Shown one piece after another: positions 6,391 through 13,441 of a stretch of 64,000 bases of DNA. The stretch is from Maritalea porphyrae (lineage in GTDB: Bacteria; Pseudomonadota; Alphaproteobacteria; Rhizobiales; Devosiaceae). Where the stretch lies: positions 186,001 through 250,000 of the forward strand of contig NZ_JAPWGX010000002.1 in assembly GCF_027213965.1 (NCBI RefSeq), written 5' to 3'. Position 1 is the first letter of the stretch. Every line of letters starts with the position of its first letter. A program made the translations under genes and the position numbers. The notes under the pieces are model-generated. The model searched no databases. It saw only the letters and a program-made list of their open reading frames with translations, and was not told where the DNA came from.

Positions 6391-6603
6391 ATGTCTGAAG
6401 AACTATGTGGGCTATCGTTAAGAGAAAAGGAATGCTTGGAGCTTCTTGCTGTCGGTCTTCGCCCTGCTAACATTGGAGTGCAATTGCAGATCAGCCGCCG
6501 TACAGTTGAAAGTTACATAGAGTCCGCAAAGCTAAAGCTAAATGCAAGGACACGCGATCAAGCGATAGCGATCGCAATTCAGGCCAGAATTATCCAGCCG
6601 TGA
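6391..6603 (+). CDS. Stand-alone LuxR-type (GerE) HTH protein, 70 aa
   Basis: Almost the whole protein is a GerE/LuxR DNA-binding domain: LSLREKECLELLAVGLRPA, then IGVQLQISRRTVESYIE, then AKLKLNARTRDQAIAIAI. No sensor domain precedes it. It ends 110 bases before three larger LuxR-type paralogs whose HTH parts match it in order (RDxAxAxA near the C-terminus). It could act as a DNA-binding partner or competitor of those proteins. Its ribosome site is weak (GGTG). It may be a remnant of a full-length paralog, but its own start and stop are intact. Confidence 0.75.
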   Translation: MSEELCGLSLREKECLELLAVGLRPANIGVQLQISRRTVESYIESAKLKLNARTRDQAIAIAIQARIIQP

Positions 6604-6613
6604 ACCCAATTTG

Positions 6614-6631
6614 GCACTTTTTACGGTATTG
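6614..6631 (+). repeat. 18-base motif, copy 1
   Basis: GCACTTTTTACGGTATTG, 82 bases before the start of the next LuxR-type gene. It matches copies at 8308 and 9165 under the consensus GCACTTWTTACGGWATTG. All three sit just after the stop of one cluster gene and 58-95 bases before the next start, as promoter or operator elements would. Here and at 9165 it is preceded by TTG, giving TTGGCAC. The role is inferred. Confidence 0.6.
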
Positions 6632-6712
6632 CGTCATGCCTTGGGTGCTACAAAAATTGCACCAAAAGTCATGGCGAATTCGCATAGATATATTTTGGGG
6701 GAAATTGCTGAA

Positions 6713-7483
6713 ATGAACGCTCGAAATACCTTCTTAGACATTGCCTATCAAACTCGAGAGACAACCTGTTTGGACACGCATTGGAAGCGATGCCAATTTG
6801 CTTTTGAAGAGCTGGGAATAGACGGGATCGGATATGGCATCATTCCGTTTCGCTCAGAAGTGTTTTTGCAAGGATCAAGCAACGCTATGATGTTCCGTCA
6901 CAGCTACCCCAAAGGCTGGGCGGACGATACGGGGCCGCAAAGACTGCTTGATGATGATGTTACAATCCCCTTGCTTGCATCGGGACGTGACGATTTGATC
7001 TGGGTTGATACAGAGGAATTATTGGACCAAGCGGAGATCCCCGACCAAGAGCGAAAACGCTTTGTCGTGCAAAACGAAATCGACCGGGCATATGAGATGA
7101 ACCAAGGGGTGACGATCGCTTTGGATATCGACCAAATCAACGGGGTTACCTCCGGCATGGGATTGAGGAATTCATCCATGACCGAATCCGAATTCGGCGC
7201 ATATTGGTCGACGCATCAGCACCAACTCAAGGCCATATGCTCTGTCCTTGATACAGGTATCCGCAAAGACCATCTGCCATCCTATGTTGGGCTAACGACG
7301 ACCGAGCGTGATTGCCTTAGCCTTGCAGCCTCTGGGCGGCAGTTTGCTGAGATTGAGTATTTGATGCGATTGAGCGAAGACCAAGTCAAAAAAGCATTCA
7401 CCCGATGCCGAAGAAAACTGCAGGCAAAAACGCGCGATCACGCGGTAGCCAAGGCGCTGGTTCTGGGGTTGATCAACCCATGA
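6713..7483 (+). CDS. LuxR-family regulator, autoinducer-binding-like domain plus HTH (paralog B)
   Basis: A 256-aa protein. The N-terminal ~180 residues resemble the autoinducer-binding domain of LuxR/TraR proteins: an aromatic stretch FRHSYPKGWADD, an acidic DDD where D70-P71 would be, a Trp in LIWVD, and the glycine-rich SGMGLRNSS segment. The C-terminal 64 residues are a GerE-type HTH with an unusual recognition region (LSEDQVKKAF). ATG 6713 is preferred over an in-frame TTG at 6611: it has GGGGGA ten bases ahead and matches the start and length of paralog C. No LuxI-type synthase is in the window, so it would be a LuxR solo. The ligand is unknown. Confidence 0.85.
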   Translation: MNARNTFLDIAYQTRETTCLDTHWKRCQFAFEELGIDGIGYGIIPFRSEVFLQGSSNAMMFRHSYPKGWADDTGPQRLLDDDVTIPLLASGRDDLIWVDTEELLDQAEIPDQERKRFVVQNEIDRAYEMNQGVTIALDIDQINGVTSGMGLRNSSMTESEFGAYWSTHQHQLKAICSVLDTGIRKDHLPSYVGLTTTERDCLSLAASGRQFAEIEYLMRLSEDQVKKAFTRCRRKLQAKTRDHAVAKALVLGLINP

Positions 7484-7534
7484 TCTACGACATATCGACG
7501 AGTGCGGGCATTTGGGCAGTGAGAAGTTGCTGAG

Positions 7535-8305
7535 ATGAATTTTCACAATTCGATAATTGAATTATCTGACTTTGTTCGAGGGGATCATAGTCTGGACAGC
7601 GTTTGGCGCAAATGCTCAGAAACATTTGCTGAAGTTGGCATCGACGGGATCGGATATGGCATTATTCCATTTCGCTCCGAGGTATTTTTACAAGGATCAA
7701 GCAACGCTGTCATGTTTCGTCATAGCTACCCCCAAGGGTGGGCGGACGACACGGGCCCGCAAGGATTGCTAGACAATGATATCACCGCATCGTTGCTTGT
7801 ATCTGGGCGTGATGACATGACGTGGGTAGATTCTGACGATTTGTTGGAAACCGCAAACATTCCCACGGAAGACAGACGGCGCTTTGCCACTCAGGACGCG
7901 ATTGACCGTGCGTACAAGATGAACCAAGGAGTAACGGTGGCCTTGGATATAGATAACACCCACGGCGTTACTTCCGGCATGGGCTTAAGGAATTCGACCA
8001 TGTCCGACTTGGAGTTTGTTACATTTTGGAACATTCATAGAGGCTATCTCAAAGCAATTTGTTCTATACTCGACACGAGTATCCGCAAAGACCATCTGCC
8101 ATCCTACGTTGGCCTAACAACAACCGAGCGGGATTGCCTGAATTTTGCGGAGTCTGGACGACAGTTTGCTGAGATTGAGTATTTGATGCGGCTGAGTGAA
8201 GACCAAGTGAAAAAAACATTCTCCCGCTGCCGAAAAAAGCTGCAAGCAAAAACGCGCGATCACGCGGTGGCCAAGGCATTGGTTCTGGGGTTGATCACCC
8301 CCTAG
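7535..8305 (+). CDS. LuxR-family regulator, autoinducer-binding-like domain plus HTH (paralog C)
   Basis: A 256-aa close paralog of the gene just upstream, aligning end to end without gaps. Long blocks are identical, such as GIDGIGYGIIPFRSEVFLQ, SYVGLTTTERDCL and AEIEYLMRLSEDQVKK. Divergence is concentrated in residues 1-34, the middle of the sensor domain (about 95-125) and around 155-175, so ligand choice may have changed while DNA recognition stayed the same. It starts 51 bases after paralog B without its own copy of the 18-base motif, so the two are probably co-transcribed. A recent tandem duplication. Confidence 0.85.
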   Translation: MNFHNSIIELSDFVRGDHSLDSVWRKCSETFAEVGIDGIGYGIIPFRSEVFLQGSSNAVMFRHSYPQGWADDTGPQGLLDNDITASLLVSGRDDMTWVDSDDLLETANIPTEDRRRFATQDAIDRAYKMNQGVTVALDIDNTHGVTSGMGLRNSTMSDLEFVTFWNIHRGYLKAICSILDTSIRKDHLPSYVGLTTTERDCLNFAESGRQFAEIEYLMRLSEDQVKKTFSRCRKKLQAKTRDHAVAKALVLGLITP

Positions 8306-8307
8306 AT

Positions 8308-8325
8308 GCACTTATTACGGTATTG
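8308..8325 (+). repeat. 18-base motif, copy 2
   Basis: GCACTTATTACGGTATTG, three bases after the stop of paralog C and 56 bases before the TTG start of paralog D. It differs from copy 1 at one position. It lacks the TTGG extension of the other two copies, so the 18-base core rather than a -35-like TTGGCA is what is conserved. Confidence 0.6.
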
Positions 8326-8381
8326 GTAAGAATGGTGAAAAGAATAGAATGGTGCCGCCCTTACCAAGGAAATGAATTGCT

Positions 8382-9161
8382 TTGAGAGAAACTGCACAAC
8401 ACATAGTCTTAGCACTGTCAGATTCTTTGCGCGGCACAACTACATCCGGCCAGGCTTGGACATTATGTCTTCATGCTTATGAGAAGCTCGGTGTTGACGG
8501 TATTGGCTATGGTTACATTCCCCTAGAAACCGAATTTAACCATCGCACTGCGACAGATGTAACAATATTTAGGCACAGCCACCCTAAAACCTGGGCTGAT
8601 GCCATAGGTGATCGAGATTTATTGGACGCCGACTTTACATTGCCGCCCCTTCTAAAAGGGGAAAGCGAAATTCGTTGGCATCATGAGCCTGCGCATCTTT
8701 TGCAAGCCGAAATTGAGCAAAATCGGACAGATTATCAAACACAATGGGAAATCGATCGGCAGCATGGAATGCACGTCGGCATTACACTGCTGCTCGGGCG
8801 CATGTCTGGACAAAATGGTCTTGTCTCTTCTGGCATTGGCCTGAGAACGAGTACAATTGCAGAGCAAGATTTTGAGAAATATTGGGAGCACCATGGTGAT
8901 TATCTTAAACAAATCAGCGCTCTGTTGGATGCCCAGTTCCGCGTGCAAGCACCAAATGCACTGATCAAGCTCGACCAGTTTGAGATCGATTGTCTAAATT
9001 TTGCGGCTGCAGGATTGTACAATCAAGAAATCGCATTTCGCCTCAGAAAAAGTGAGGACCAGATTAAGAAATGCTTTGCCCGCAGCCGAAAGAAGCTGTC
9101 GGCCCTTACTCGAGATCACGCCGTTGCCAAAGCACTGTCTATAGGCCTGCTTGCGCCGTAG
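8382..9161 (+). CDS. LuxR-family regulator, autoinducer-binding-like domain plus HTH (paralog D)
   Basis: A 259-aa, more distant member of the same family (GVDGIGYGYIPLETEF, FRHSHPKTWADAIGD, SSGIGLRTSTI). The C-terminal HTH ends KLSALTRDHAVAKALSIGLLAP, close to B and C. The start is a TTG with AAGGA ten bases ahead; a nearby ATG at 8372 is out of frame. It has a longer acidic/His-rich middle (about residues 85-125) than B and C. It directly precedes the lipoprotein/Slam operon on the same strand, which suggests it or its paralogs control that operon; not demonstrated. Confidence 0.83.
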   Translation: MRETAQHIVLALSDSLRGTTTSGQAWTLCLHAYEKLGVDGIGYGYIPLETEFNHRTATDVTIFRHSHPKTWADAIGDRDLLDADFTLPPLLKGESEIRWHHEPAHLLQAEIEQNRTDYQTQWEIDRQHGMHVGITLLLGRMSGQNGLVSSGIGLRTSTIAEQDFEKYWEHHGDYLKQISALLDAQFRVQAPNALIKLDQFEIDCLNFAAAGLYNQEIAFRLRKSEDQIKKCFARSRKKLSALTRDHAVAKALSIGLLAP

Positions 9162-9259: not shown

Positions 9260-9652
9260 ATGCAAAGTATTGGGGACGGTGTGGTTTTAAGATCGATACG
9301 AGGTGGCATGGCAATTGGTGCCAGCTGCATTCTTCTAACCGCATGTGTGACAACTACGTCAAATGTCGCAAATGGAGCTGCTGTTGTTTATCCAGCAACC
9401 TGTGGGGACATTCCAAAAACTGTGAGGAGCAACGGGGCTCCTCTGTCCCAAGCGATCATAGATGAACTTGCTTCATTCTGGCCACCTGAGCACATGGACA
9501 CCCTCAAAAGATTGCAAAAGGTCTTAGATGGTCGCGGTTCGCCCCGTGACATTGGTTTTGCCCAAAAGTGCTTTGACGTGACGACAGGTCATACACCCCA
9601 ACAAGAACTAAACAAAGAACAAGCGCCGGTCGGTTTACTTGGGATGCAATAA
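9260..9652 (+). CDS. Small putative lipoprotein, unknown function
   Basis: A 130-aa protein whose signal peptide (basic RSIRGG, hydrophobic MAIGASCIL) ends in a lipobox LLTAC with the Cys at about residue 29. A later in-frame ATG at 9308 would leave almost no basic region, so 9260 is preferred. The mature part has two more Cys (ATCGD and QKCFD) that could form a disulphide, and no recognisable domain. First gene of an operon with a TbpB-like lipoprotein (29 bases downstream by that gene's chosen start), a Slam-like protein and a barrel. It may be an accessory or second cargo of that export system; inference only. Confidence 0.7.
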   Translation: MQSIGDGVVLRSIRGGMAIGASCILLTACVTTTSNVANGAAVVYPATCGDIPKTVRSNGAPLSQAIIDELASFWPPEHMDTLKRLQKVLDGRGSPRDIGFAQKCFDVTTGHTPQQELNKEQAPVGLLGMQ

Positions 9653-9680
9653 ATCACAACTATTTTTCTGGAGATCATAC

Positions 9681-10643
9681 GTGAAAAAAACTCTGACAAT
9701 TGCCGGTTTGCTCGGTGCTACTGTAATGCTTTCTGGCTGTACGGCTCTGAGTGGGCTTTTTGGTGTGGCCGATGTTGGTTCGGGTGGCAACAATTCTGCA
9801 GCCGTCGTTGATATCGATGGAAATGGTTCCGTATCTGCAGGCGAACGTGCCATGACAGCATATGCAGCGACATATGCGCAAGATGGCTCACCATCCAACG
9901 TCCTAAGCGCACAGCAAAGAGCTGCAGGCATTTCGGGTTTTGCAACAGGCAGTAATGGACTTGTTAGTGCGGCTGCAGGTGCCAACGGCTATACAACGGC
10001 AAGCGTTCATGTTTCAGACGATAAAAAAACGCTAACGATTACTGTTGACGGCAAAAAACACACCATTTCGGGCAACGGCGTTTCGCACGTGGAAAAAATC
10101 AACGGCAAAGACTATCAGGCCTTGGCGTTTGGCTATGGCGACTTATCAAATTCCACAAATGGGACAGATGTTGCTTCAATTCTAAACGGCGATTTTGCTT
10201 CACTTGCATTTCTCTTTAAAAACGCAAAAGGCAACGGTCAGAATTACAGCATTCAAACCAATGAGGGCTACACGATGATTGCGACGGGATTGGAGACCCC
10301 CGTAGACAAACTTCCGTCGCAAAAAGCATCTTATGGTGGAGACTTTTACATCATAACCAACAACGGTGGCGGCGGTTTCGGCAACTTTGATGCCATCGCA
10401 GATTTTGGTAACAAGACCATTACAGCGGATACGTCTTACGAAGGCACCAAAAATGGCGGTTTCACCGGCACTATAGCGGGTAATAAGTTTAGCGGCGCCG
10501 TCACGTCCATTTCAGATAGGGATTATGAAGGCGATGTGGTTGGGGCTTTCTATGGTCCAAACGCTGAAGAAATTGCCGGTGCCAGCGTTGGCACGATGAA
10601 CAATGTAGACGCATCCGCGTTCTTCATCGGCAATAAGAAATAA
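9681..10643 (+). CDS. TbpB-like surface lipoprotein (putative Slam cargo) with EF-hand loop
   Basis: A 320-aa lipoprotein with signal MKKTLTIAGLLGATVML and lipobox LSGC (Cys20). The GTG start at 9681 is chosen over an in-frame ATG at 9639 because it gives a clean signal peptide after a GGAG site. Residues 44-55 (DIDGNGSVSAGE) fit a canonical EF-hand calcium loop. The C-terminal ~110 residues look like the eight-stranded barrel of transferrin-binding-protein-B/fHbp-type proteins: SYGGDFYI, then GGFTGTIAGNKFSG, then GDVVGAFYGPNAEEIAG, the family's most characteristic segment. Such lipoproteins are known substrates of Slam translocators, and a Slam-like gene is next. The ligand is unknown; haem, metal or a host factor are possible by analogy. 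Confidence 0.82.
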   Translation: MKKTLTIAGLLGATVMLSGCTALSGLFGVADVGSGGNNSAAVVDIDGNGSVSAGERAMTAYAATYAQDGSPSNVLSAQQRAAGISGFATGSNGLVSAAAGANGYTTASVHVSDDKKTLTITVDGKKHTISGNGVSHVEKINGKDYQALAFGYGDLSNSTNGTDVASILNGDFASLAFLFKNAKGNGQNYSIQTNEGYTMIATGLETPVDKLPSQKASYGGDFYIITNNGGGGFGNFDAIADFGNKTITADTSYEGTKNGGFTGTIAGNKFSGAVTSISDRDYEGDVVGAFYGPNAEEIAGASVGTMNNVDASAFFIGNKK

Positions 10644-10666
10644 GCCCATCTTAGCAAAAAGAAGTC

Positions 10667-10692
10667 GTCCGTCATCAAAACCGATGGCGGAC
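10667..10692 (+). terminator. Intercistronic hairpin between lipoprotein and Slam-like genes
   Basis: Arms GTCCGTCATC and GATGGCGGAC pair over ten bases (one G-U) around a 6-base loop. No T-run follows. It covers the first possible ATG of the Slam-like gene (10684), which argues for translation starting further down. It may lower expression of the export protein relative to its cargo. Confidence 0.45.
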
Positions 10693-10701
10693 GCAACAGG
10701 T

Positions 10702-11988
10702 ATGTTTATGTGGGTTATATTACGCTTTTTCGTTGCACTCGTTGTTGTTGGAAGTGGCTGCATAACTGCATTCGCACAGGGTTATTCGGATATGGCCCAT
10801 GCTATAGAAAACAAGGACTGGGTAACTGCGTCCAATTTGGCTATTACGTTAGATGAGGAAGCAAAAACCGGCAGCTTCTTTTTTCTATATGTGACAGCAA
10901 CCAAGTTCTCCGTGGAAGACAACTGCGCCGAGGCAATTCCCATTATCGACGCGCTAAAACAGGCAAAGCCTAGTTTTGCCCCGCTGCATGAACTGGGTTA
11001 CATCTGCAATACCAAATTGGGAAGAAGCGCTGCGGCTAAATCTGACCTACAAAAACTCGTAGCCATTTTGCCGAACGGGCAAGAACGCGATTTGATCCGA
11101 GGTATGCTTGAAGCTGAGCGTACTCGATCCAAAGTTTCGGTCGGTGTTTATGGAAGTGTGACGCCTTCGTCCAATGCAAATAAGCAAACAAGTGTAGGGT
11201 ACATCAATGGTCTCGAAGTCACTTCGGGTTCGAAGGCCTCCAAGGGTGTCAATGCAACCATTGGGGCAACATTCACCAAGGTTCTAAATCAGACGCGGAC
11301 CTCCTCCTTTGCCGGAGTTGTTAGAACCGAAATTGGGTATTCCACAGTAGATCAGGTGATTTCCCCCAGGTTGGCGCTTGAAACACCCCTTGCACTTTCA
11401 ATGACTGAAAATGCATCAGCAGTGCTCACGCCATTCATTGACCTTCACTTTCTTGGCACAAAGCATTCGCATACTAAAATTGGAACAAAAGGGATCGTTC
11501 GCCAAAAACTTGATGACAACAATTCAATGGCGTACCAAGCTGAGATTTCTAGAAACAATTATGTCGACGCGCACTACTTCAATGGATTTTACTTTCACGG
11601 TAGTGTGAGTTGGGAAAGAAATCTGAGCAAAACGACATCGCTTACACTAAGCACAGGACTAAACTCAGTTCTGACTGATCGTGTTGCAAGACAATCGCAC
11701 AAAATTGAAGCGAAAGCCCGCCTGGAACACAGTACTGAGAACGGTTTGACTTTTGGCGCGGAGGCATCGGCAGGGGTTCGTTTTCATAATCAACCGGCTC
11801 CACTTACAACCGCTGGAAACCAGACTGATCAGTTTCTTAGAACCCAATTGGAACTGAGCCACAAAGACATCACTTTCGGCGCTTTTCGCCCAGTTCTTGC
11901 CTATACCTTTCAAGTGCAAGAATCCGACAACATATTCTATAAACATGAAAGTCATGATTTAGGCATCTCACTAAGGGCCAACTTCTAA
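10702..11988 (+). CDS. Slam-like outer-membrane protein (DUF560; type XI secretion)
   Basis: About 428 aa. A signal peptide (MWVILRFFVALVVVGSG, cut near AFAQG) is followed by a helical, TPR-like part to about residue 145 (ENKDWVTASNLAITLDEEA, FAPLHELGYICNTKLGRS). The remaining ~285 residues alternate polar and aromatic/hydrophobic positions like a barrel and end in LGISLRANF, with the terminal Phe typical of BAM substrates. TPR plus ~14-strand barrel is the layout of Slam (surface lipoprotein assembly modulator), which moves lipoproteins such as TbpB to the cell surface. The preceding gene encodes a TbpB-like lipoprotein, which supports this. It is shorter than Neisseria Slam1. The start is uncertain (ATGs at 10684, 10702, 10708). 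Confidence 0.78.
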   Translation: MFMWVILRFFVALVVVGSGCITAFAQGYSDMAHAIENKDWVTASNLAITLDEEAKTGSFFFLYVTATKFSVEDNCAEAIPIIDALKQAKPSFAPLHELGYICNTKLGRSAAAKSDLQKLVAILPNGQERDLIRGMLEAERTRSKVSVGVYGSVTPSSNANKQTSVGYINGLEVTSGSKASKGVNATIGATFTKVLNQTRTSSFAGVVRTEIGYSTVDQVISPRLALETPLALSMTENASAVLTPFIDLHFLGTKHSHTKIGTKGIVRQKLDDNNSMAYQAEISRNNYVDAHYFNGFYFHGSVSWERNLSKTTSLTLSTGLNSVLTDRVARQSHKIEAKARLEHSTENGLTFGAEASAGVRFHNQPAPLTTAGNQTDQFLRTQLELSHKDITFGAFRPVLAYTFQVQESDNIFYKHESHDLGISLRANF

Positions 11989-12909
11989 ATGAGACGACTT
12001 TGGAAACGGCGTGCGCTCATTTGTTGGCTCGTTCTCTTCAGCTCCGCACAAGGCGCAATAGCTGGGTCTTGGTCGTTCTATTCTGAAACGGCGTTGGAAT
12101 ACGCGCAGGCAACTTTTCAACACGACGCGTCTATGTTCAATCCCATATTGGGCAGCCCAACCAGTTCTCTCATCTATCCCGGGCAGTTGCACTCGTCTGC
12201 CAAATTAGGTTTCAGACAAAAGAGCGGTGAAGGAAGTGAAATTGAGGTAAGCATCAAAGCTGCATTCCGGGCACATTCCGAGTTCATAGATAACGATTAC
12301 CTTGCTGATCAAGTGCTTTTTTCACAAACAACTAGCCGCACACAGGTGCCGACAAATGTCGAAATTGCAGCAAAATTTCGCTCTGCGCCTATAGCCCGCA
12401 TCGGTAATGCGACGACGCTTTCTTTAGCCATTGAGACAAAAGTTGGGCATGACATACGGGAAAACAGAGGCCTGATATGCGGAGGTGTATGCCAATCGCT
12501 TCCTTTTGTTACGGACACACAGCCAGTCATAACGCATCGCACAACGAGGACGTCAATCCGGCTGGGCCCAAGCCTGTCAACGCGACTTGGTGAGCGAACG
12601 ACCTTTGATATGAGCGCATTGGTCGGGCCGAGCCTAGCTATTATTGACGACACACACCACTTGCGTACAAACCAAGGCTCGCCACTACAAATTCAATATA
12701 CTCTGTTTGGACTTGAGATGGGGACGGTGTTTGCATTTGAGCATGAATTTTCTGAATTCTTGAGTGTACAAGTTGGAATTACAGCGAACGCGGCGCATCT
12801 GTTTGGGCAAGCCCAGTTCTCACCAAACAATGAGCGATCACCTTTACTCGCCGGCTCCGCAATATTTGAAGAAGCAAGCTTGTTTGCCCGTTTCGGAGGT
12901 GAATTTTGA
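11989..12909 (+). CDS. Putative outer-membrane beta-barrel protein
   Basis: A 306-aa protein with signal peptide (MRRLWKRRALICWLVLF, cut near AIAGS) and alternating strand pattern throughout, ending FARFGGEF with a terminal Phe. The ATG directly follows the stop of the Slam-like gene (TAAATG), so it is surely co-translated. A PTSSLIYPG segment near residue 56 recalls surface turns of small outer-membrane barrels, but no family can be named. A pair of Cys (ICGGVC, about residues 165-170) is unusual for a barrel. It may be a receptor or assembly partner for the exported lipoprotein; inferred from position only. Confidence 0.65.
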   Translation: MRRLWKRRALICWLVLFSSAQGAIAGSWSFYSETALEYAQATFQHDASMFNPILGSPTSSLIYPGQLHSSAKLGFRQKSGEGSEIEVSIKAAFRAHSEFIDNDYLADQVLFSQTTSRTQVPTNVEIAAKFRSAPIARIGNATTLSLAIETKVGHDIRENRGLICGGVCQSLPFVTDTQPVITHRTTRTSIRLGPSLSTRLGERTTFDMSALVGPSLAIIDDTHHLRTNQGSPLQIQYTLFGLEMGTVFAFEHEFSEFLSVQVGITANAAHLFGQAQFSPNNERSPLLAGSAIFEEASLFARFGGEF

Positions 12910-13009: not shown

Positions 13010-13441
13010 ATGAATTCAACGATGGCGCCTAGATTTTCGATCGAGGCAACAAACAATTTTGAGCAGAATGCCTCTCCTCCTTTGGCGCTTGAAAAGGGCG
13101 GTTTCTTCGTCATCGACTTTGATCATCAAACACCGCTCGCGCTTACACCGGTGCCTGATTGGCTGATCGCTGCAACGTTTACGATGGAATTTGATGCAAC
13201 TCTAACCAATAGTGAACTTCAGCTGCTCAAGCAGCTTTTGTGCTCGAAGTCGTTGCGCGAGATCAGTGCTGAAGACGGTGTCTCCTACGAAACGCGTCGC
13301 AATCAACTAAAAAAAGTCCTTGAGAAGTCGAACCTCAATCGTCAGGTCACTCTGTTGTTGGTCATGTCAAACTTGCTGGTCAAGGCGCTCTTTTTTGAGC
13401 ATAAAACCTGTTCGCCGTCTTGTACGCATGCTAGAGACTGA
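13010..13441 (+). CDS. Short HTH (LuxR-like) protein, unknown
   Basis: A 143-aa protein. Residues about 65-120 read as a GerE-like HTH: LTNSELQLLKQLLCSKSLREIS, then VSYETRRNQLKKVLEKSNL. The N-terminal 60 residues (PPLALEKGGFFVIDFDHQTPLAL) look like the tail of a larger sensor or transcription-factor domain, so it may be a truncated relative of longer regulators. ATGs at 13010 and 13022 are both possible, with a weak ribosome site. It lies 100 bases after the barrel gene, on the same strand, and may regulate that operon. Confidence 0.6.
   Translation: MNSTMAPRFSIEATNNFEQNASPPLALEKGGFFVIDFDHQTPLALTPVPDWLIAATFTMEFDATLTNSELQLLKQLLCSKSLREISAEDGVSYETRRNQLKKVLEKSNLNRQVTLLLVMSNLLVKALFFEHKTCSPSCTHARD

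Follow-up and report, generated by a model that had tools for sequence, protein, structure and literature searches.

A Slam-type surface-lipoprotein operon in Maritalea porphyrae extended by an omptin-like outer-membrane barrel, a putative surface protease

In the Slam–cargo pairs known from other bacteria, surface display of the cargo lipoprotein requires the outer-membrane protein Slam (PMC5449769), and translocation by Slam has been reconstituted (PMC9090332). Slams are already on record for every clade of the Proteobacteria, the alphaproteobacteria among them (PMC5449769, PMC12282271), so the presence of one in the stretch analysed here—64,000 nucleotides of Maritalea porphyrae contig NZ_JAPWGX010000002.1, hereafter ‘the window’—is not new in itself. 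This Slam is the third of four open reading frames (ORFs) at positions 9260–12909, all on the + strand; it is preceded by a cargo-type lipoprotein and followed directly by an omptin-like outer-membrane barrel. The new part is this last protein, a putative protease that extends the type XI secretion system (T11SS) pair, and we consider it rather likely that the locus is a type XI surface-lipoprotein operon to which an omptin-like outer-membrane protease has been added, acting jointly with the cargo.

The closest described systems, T11SSs with TbpB-like cargo (PMC5449769, PMC8406197, PMC9090332), likewise combine a DUF560/SlipAM protein with an adjacent lipoprotein ending in an eight-strand TbpB barrel. 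The window operon differs from them in the absence of a TonB-dependent receptor (none occurs in the operon), in the omptin-like gene directly behind Slam, in an EF-hand-like loop in the cargo linker, and in the divergence of its type of Slam. The marine cluster 3 T11SSs of Rhodobacteraceae/Roseobacteraceae (PMC12282271) share with it an alphaproteobacterial Slam and a lipidated cargo of similar size (282–375 aa) with the same kind of barrel; however, genes for DUF1194, thymidylate synthase and glyoxalase are present at those loci, and none of these was recognised beside the window operon. A search of the available literature found no published link between omptins and Slam/T11SS, and two T11SS surveys, PMC12282271 among them, do not mention omptins. 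The features on which the comparison turns are the following.

9681..10643, + strand: cargo surface lipoprotein with TbpB/NHBA-type handle and eight-strand barrel (Pfam, NHBA structures, predicted fold, relatives upstream of Slam)
9681..9740, + strand: predicted signal peptide with LSGC lipobox at residues 17–20 (from sequence); the putative lipidated Cys is residue 20, codon 9738–9740
9810..9845, + strand: single EF-hand-like loop, DIDGNGSVSAGE, in the N-terminal linker of the cargo (pattern match)
10350..10625, + strand: C-terminal TbpB_B_D barrel, cargo residues 224–315 (Pfam match; fold)
10702..11988, + strand: outer-membrane protein of the Slam (T11SS) family, with a SlipAM/DUF560 barrel domain (PF04575) preceded by a putative TPR-like region
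11989..12909, + strand: omptin-like outer-membrane barrel, putative protease (predicted fold; family profile)
12289..12297, + strand: D101-N-D103, aligned with OmpT Asp83/Asp85 (invariant in 21 aligned proteins; opposite the invariant omptin DxD)
12649..12657, + strand: D221-T-H223, aligned with OmpT Asp210/His212 (invariant in 21 aligned proteins; opposite the invariant omptin DxH)

Domains, predicted folds, conserved catalytic residues and conserved gene order are the direct results of this analysis. The start codon of the second barrel (306 aa, C-terminal Phe) follows the Slam stop codon with no base between, as a preliminary description of this DNA, made from the letters alone, had claimed. 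Its predicted structure (pLDDT 90.9) is an omptin-type barrel of 10 strands, counted from the DSSP string. By Foldseek and VIA-align, OmpT, Pla and plasmid OmpT rank first (Z 26–28 over 255–278 residues; OmpT 1i78, Z 27.8, rmsd 2.7, 271 aligned; Pla, Z 27–28), ahead of OpcA (Z 18–19), a Legionella type IV secretion system porin (18), a designed barrel (12.9) and other natural barrels (≤10.5). The family profile matched a profile of six true omptins from Rhizobiales with 98.3% probability (E 1.7e-14, 242 columns), against 1.3% in a control comparison with a profile of Slam, another outer-membrane barrel. A second Slam or a generic porin is ruled out by that control and by omptins being clearly the best fold.

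Among 21 aligned members of the family, 14 columns are invariant, including D101, D103, D221, H223 and R226. In the profile alignment S59, L61, D101, D103, D221, H223 and R226 of the window protein stand opposite the invariant omptin residues S70, L72, D112, D114, D238, H240 and R243. The catalytic pairs of omptins, DxD and DxH, are Asp83/Asp85 and Asp210/His212 in OmpT (PMC11410778), and their correspondence to residues of the window family is drawn from the profile alignment only. By sequence and model, then, the second barrel is omptin-like with a complete catalytic set. Like OmpT and Pla (PF01278) it combines a predicted 10-strand barrel with both residue pairs, but it is only 10–12% identical to the solved omptins, it has two conserved cysteines (C164, C168), and an S1′ acidic residue is not evident. 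The dibasic specificity of OmpT derives from acidic S1 and S1′ pockets (Glu27, Asp208, Asp97). A conserved Asp46 of the window family lies close to the Glu27 region, outside the coverage of the profile alignment, and no counterpart of the S1′ residue Asp97 is evident in the family alignments.

These features bear on the proposal that the protein has an omptin fold but serves at the surface without proteolysis, as the adhesin OpcA does. In its favour, OpcA comes second to the omptins in fold (Z 19), the Asp97 counterpart is not evident and the window protein misses PF01278; yet omptins fit far better, and the 21 aligned proteins, drawn from several families, share all four catalytic residues without exception, which makes a non-proteolytic barrel very improbable. 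A search of the PDB with the barrel family profile turned up only OpcA (E 0.23), and a search of viral contigs with the second barrel found nothing.

The protein is here filed as omptin-like, not as a member of PF01278, because the Pfam model fails to detect it. Its nearest kin likewise lack a PF01278 match; more distant family members score 27.7 and 27.5 bits, above the Pfam Omptin cut-off of 22.6. Relatives were found in 13 of 151 related genomes and in 20 of 397 genomes of the order; the family is scattered through Rhizobiales and missed by Pfam. Some Rhizobiales proteins of ~520–610 aa (loci L100, L102, L105, L090, L092 and L094) seemingly consist of an omptin or omptin-like barrel fused to another outer-membrane barrel, either of which may come first; two such barrels within one chain are unusual.

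The Slam and cargo genes agree closely with what had been proposed for them. The Slam protein (428 aa, C-terminal Phe; an in-frame ATG also lies at 10684) matches PF04575 (SlipAM) over residues 238–428 (E 3.9e-14, 53.3 bits, cut-off 22), as the suggested DUF560 assignment led one to expect, and is by sequence a Slam/T11SS outer-membrane protein. A TPR_9 match stays below threshold (E 0.01, 16.3 bits, cut-off 35), and the related Slam of genome G024, described below, is similar in this, its match also being sub-threshold. It is the only Slam in the host genome (3.6 Mb; Devosiaceae, the family that includes Pelagibacterium); a PDB sequence search with it gave no matches, and nothing was found in plasmids.

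The cargo (320 aa) starts from a GTG at 9681 behind a GGAG site and carries GDVVGAFYGPNAEEIAG close to its C-terminal end; its lipobox Cys is invariant across 17 aligned cargos. A TbpB/fHbp-like lipoprotein had been claimed here, and the claim is borne out by a TbpB_B_D match (E 4e-10, 40.7 bits, cut-off 26) and by an AlphaFold2 model built with the 17 aligned cargos (pLDDT 82; first 37 residues low-confidence), which has a TbpB handle and a C-terminal eight-strand TbpB-type barrel. TbpB C-lobes are the best structural matches (Z 17.4), followed by LbpB, hemophilins, NHBA (Z 14.6, identity 26–30%) and fHbp. A sequence search also recovered NHBA (GNA2132) structures (E 0.0015), and the cargo barrel and the NHBA C-terminal domain have a GDV-G-FYGP--EE-AG stretch in common. 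On sequence and predicted fold the protein is a TbpB/NHBA-type surface lipoprotein, and its Pfam match, like that of the Slam protein, is much too strong to be due to chance. The perfect EF-hand-type loop pattern is present in this cargo and in 3/3 cargo paralogues of G024, and missing from the cargo of genome G051; it hints that calcium could stiffen the cargo tether, in a region where confidence in the model is low to moderate.

A cargo-family lipoprotein lies directly upstream of Slam in 12/12 other Devosiaceae genomes opened that carry a Slam of the window group, and also at two loci of a second Slam type. Because each such Devosiaceae Slam locus opened has a cargo-type lipoprotein just upstream, the core pair is to be read from sequence as a new member of a known system, a clear and in its essentials ordinary type XI secretion pair.

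The four same-strand genes of the preliminary description were all found as ORFs at the positions it gave, separated, in order, by 28, 58 (or 40) and 0 bases. A single transcript across the four is plausible, since a scan by consensus only saw no terminator-like site in the gaps.

Gene order provides the link between the second barrel and the pair. The second barrel had been put forward as a feature of a possible variant system; it can now be specified as omptin-like, and it occupies the same position in two other genera. The order cargo, Slam, omptin-like gene, on the same strand and abutting, is found in the window, in G024 (record JAJRRG010000217.1, Alphaproteobacteria isolate Dive100_bin2.67) and in G051 (a large contig, from another genus), three genera in all. 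Conservation is modest, identities to the window proteins being 38% (G024) and 30% (G051) for Slam, 29% and 25% for the barrel, and 36–39% for the cargos of both; the G051 Slam scores 20.6 with PF04575, just under the cut-off of 22. In the Slam tree the three sequences form a group (support 83/84), within which the window and G024 are joined at 99/98. The barrel tree also joins the window and G024 (93/90), on long branches, whereas the G051 barrel clusters with a solitary congeneric relative (85/84); the two histories, as reconstructed from sequence, would accordingly agree only in part.

Such a pattern could also arise by incidental adjacency, the omptin-like gene having landed beside Slam once in an ancestor and having been inherited, or moved, as a unit with no joint function. 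One event could suffice, given that the three Slams form one group, and the system is patchy: Slam occurs in 18/136 Devosiaceae genomes and 4/16 genera, and in none of five congeners of the window genome, from which the whole system is missing. Gene order, however, seldom survives such divergence without selection. Across 151 genomes an omptin-like protein is present in 11/16 genomes with Slam versus 2/135 without (Fisher p 2e-11), and co-occurrence persists outside Pelagibacterium (3/5 versus 2/133, p 2e-4), both p values being inflated by the relatedness of the genomes, which was not removed. Incidental adjacency is on these grounds improbable.

The G024 operon contains three cargo paralogues in a row. 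In two genomes, three tandem cargo paralogues lie upstream of one Slam (L050:6651-9517 and L052:9291-13061); three cargos in a row before a single Slam suggest that one Slam may serve several diverged cargos. Downstream of the G024 operon (L050:12155-14301) are genes that we take to be a formate-tetrahydrofolate ligase and a sarcosine oxidase subunit. These presumed identities are in line with the association of T11SSs with single-carbon metabolism that has been reported (PMC12282271).

How the parts would work together can be drawn in part from the known biology of these families, from which lipidation, Slam-dependent display and the outward-facing omptin site are taken. The cargo, synthesised with a lipoprotein signal, would receive its lipid and then be sorted to the outer membrane. 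In known cargos, the C-terminal TbpB-type barrel is the part that directs them to Slam. Here Slam would recognise that barrel and pass the cargo to the outer leaflet, leaving the remainder displayed outside, and the 10-strand omptin-like barrel would present its catalytic site to the cell exterior. This barrel would most likely contribute to the surface process served by the pair, its substrate being either the displayed cargo, in maturation or release, or a protein or peptide captured by the cargo; here we infer the proteolytic activity of the second barrel, its joint action with the cargo, and what is cut.

The more specific version, a display-and-cut module in which a dedicated omptin-like protease behind Slam processes or releases the cargo at the surface, is offered tentatively and is on the whole doubtful. 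It is favoured by analogy with two precedents: in Neisseria, LbpB and a fragment of NHBA are set free by NalP, a different surface protease (PMC5472700), and Pls, a T11SS cargo, has been proposed to undergo cleavage after secretion (PMC12282271). Both NalP and the window candidate would be surface proteases cutting and releasing TbpB/NHBA-type lipoproteins, but NalP is a subtilisin-like autotransporter, whereas the candidate is an omptin-like barrel inside the operon. Shedding of the cargo at a conserved dibasic site, in classic OmpT style, is unsupported, no such site being shared across the cargos. Because the cargos share no dibasic site and the OmpT S1′ counterpart is not evident, the cleavage specificity of the putative protease, as far as sequence can indicate, probably differs from that of OmpT.

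Several observations weigh against a joint role of protease and cargo. Dibasic sites are absent from the three G024 cargos and occur once in the G051 cargo, none being conserved. The second barrel has no match in Pfam or NCBIfam, PF01278 included, so that its omptin link depends on the family profile and the predicted fold; a three-row profile of the Slam-adjacent barrels alone reached only 3.5% against omptins, being too thin to detect the relationship. The omptin-like gene adjoins Slam at only three Slam loci, the Pelagibacterium relatives are located elsewhere in the genome, with 5/13 genomes lacking a strong one, and the co-occurrence statistics are inflated as described. Solitary omptin-like genes of Pelagibacterium lie beside flagellar genes at two loci (L063, L065).

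An alternative is that the omptin-like protease ignores cargo and ligand and has a protective role, such as the destruction of cationic peptides, sharing an operon through co-regulation of surface functions. Cleavage of cationic antimicrobial peptides is a known activity of omptins (PMC11410778), and both the absence of conserved dibasic sites from the cargos and the solitary Pelagibacterium relatives away from Slam genes, some beside flagellar genes, would fit. Against this, the gene has been kept directly downstream of Slam in three genera despite identities of 25–39%, which suggests more than shared regulation, and a purely protective role is judged unlikely. Joint action of protease and cargo is retained as the preferred reading. 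No omptin-like gene adjoined any of the 20 Slam loci taken from across the class, so the linkage looks confined to Devosiaceae, and its extension to alphaproteobacterial T11SSs in general is unsupported.

The remaining ORF of the four precedes the cargo.

9260..9652, + strand: small putative lipoprotein, 130 aa, LTAC lipobox at residues 26–29 (sequence only)

The preliminary description had counted this lipoprotein as part of the system, a view that is not supported. It has no relative in 151 genomes and no match in Pfam or NCBIfam, is missing from the G024 and G051 operons, and its in-frame codon score exceeds the out-of-frame one by only a little. A role as a conserved component was rejected for lack of relatives; with that lack and its marginal coding score it is, by sequence, the weakest of the four ORFs, and we would regard it as accessory or unrelated, its membership being doubtful.

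Directly upstream of the operon (6391–9161), a 70-aa GerE-only protein and three LuxR-type regulators of 256–290 aa with weak autoinducer-binding domains are encoded in tandem; the regulators at 6611–7483 and 7535–8305 are closely similar. The array is missing at the G024 and G051 operons, and was for that reason rejected as part of the operon. Downstream, at 13010–13441, is a helix-turn-helix protein, to which longer proteins directly upstream of the second-type Slam–cargo pair in Pelagibacterium (L068:287-1408, L069:4629-5756) are weakly similar. A LuxR-like regulator adjoining Slam may be recurrent in Devosiaceae.

The locus is an environmental example of a Slam–cargo pair whose operon has no TonB receptor, and it points to an omptin-like family across Rhizobiales that Pfam misses. 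If true, display-and-cut would mean that proteolysis belongs to the secretion process itself in some type XI systems, and an operon carrying its own candidate surface protease makes that idea testable in one locus.

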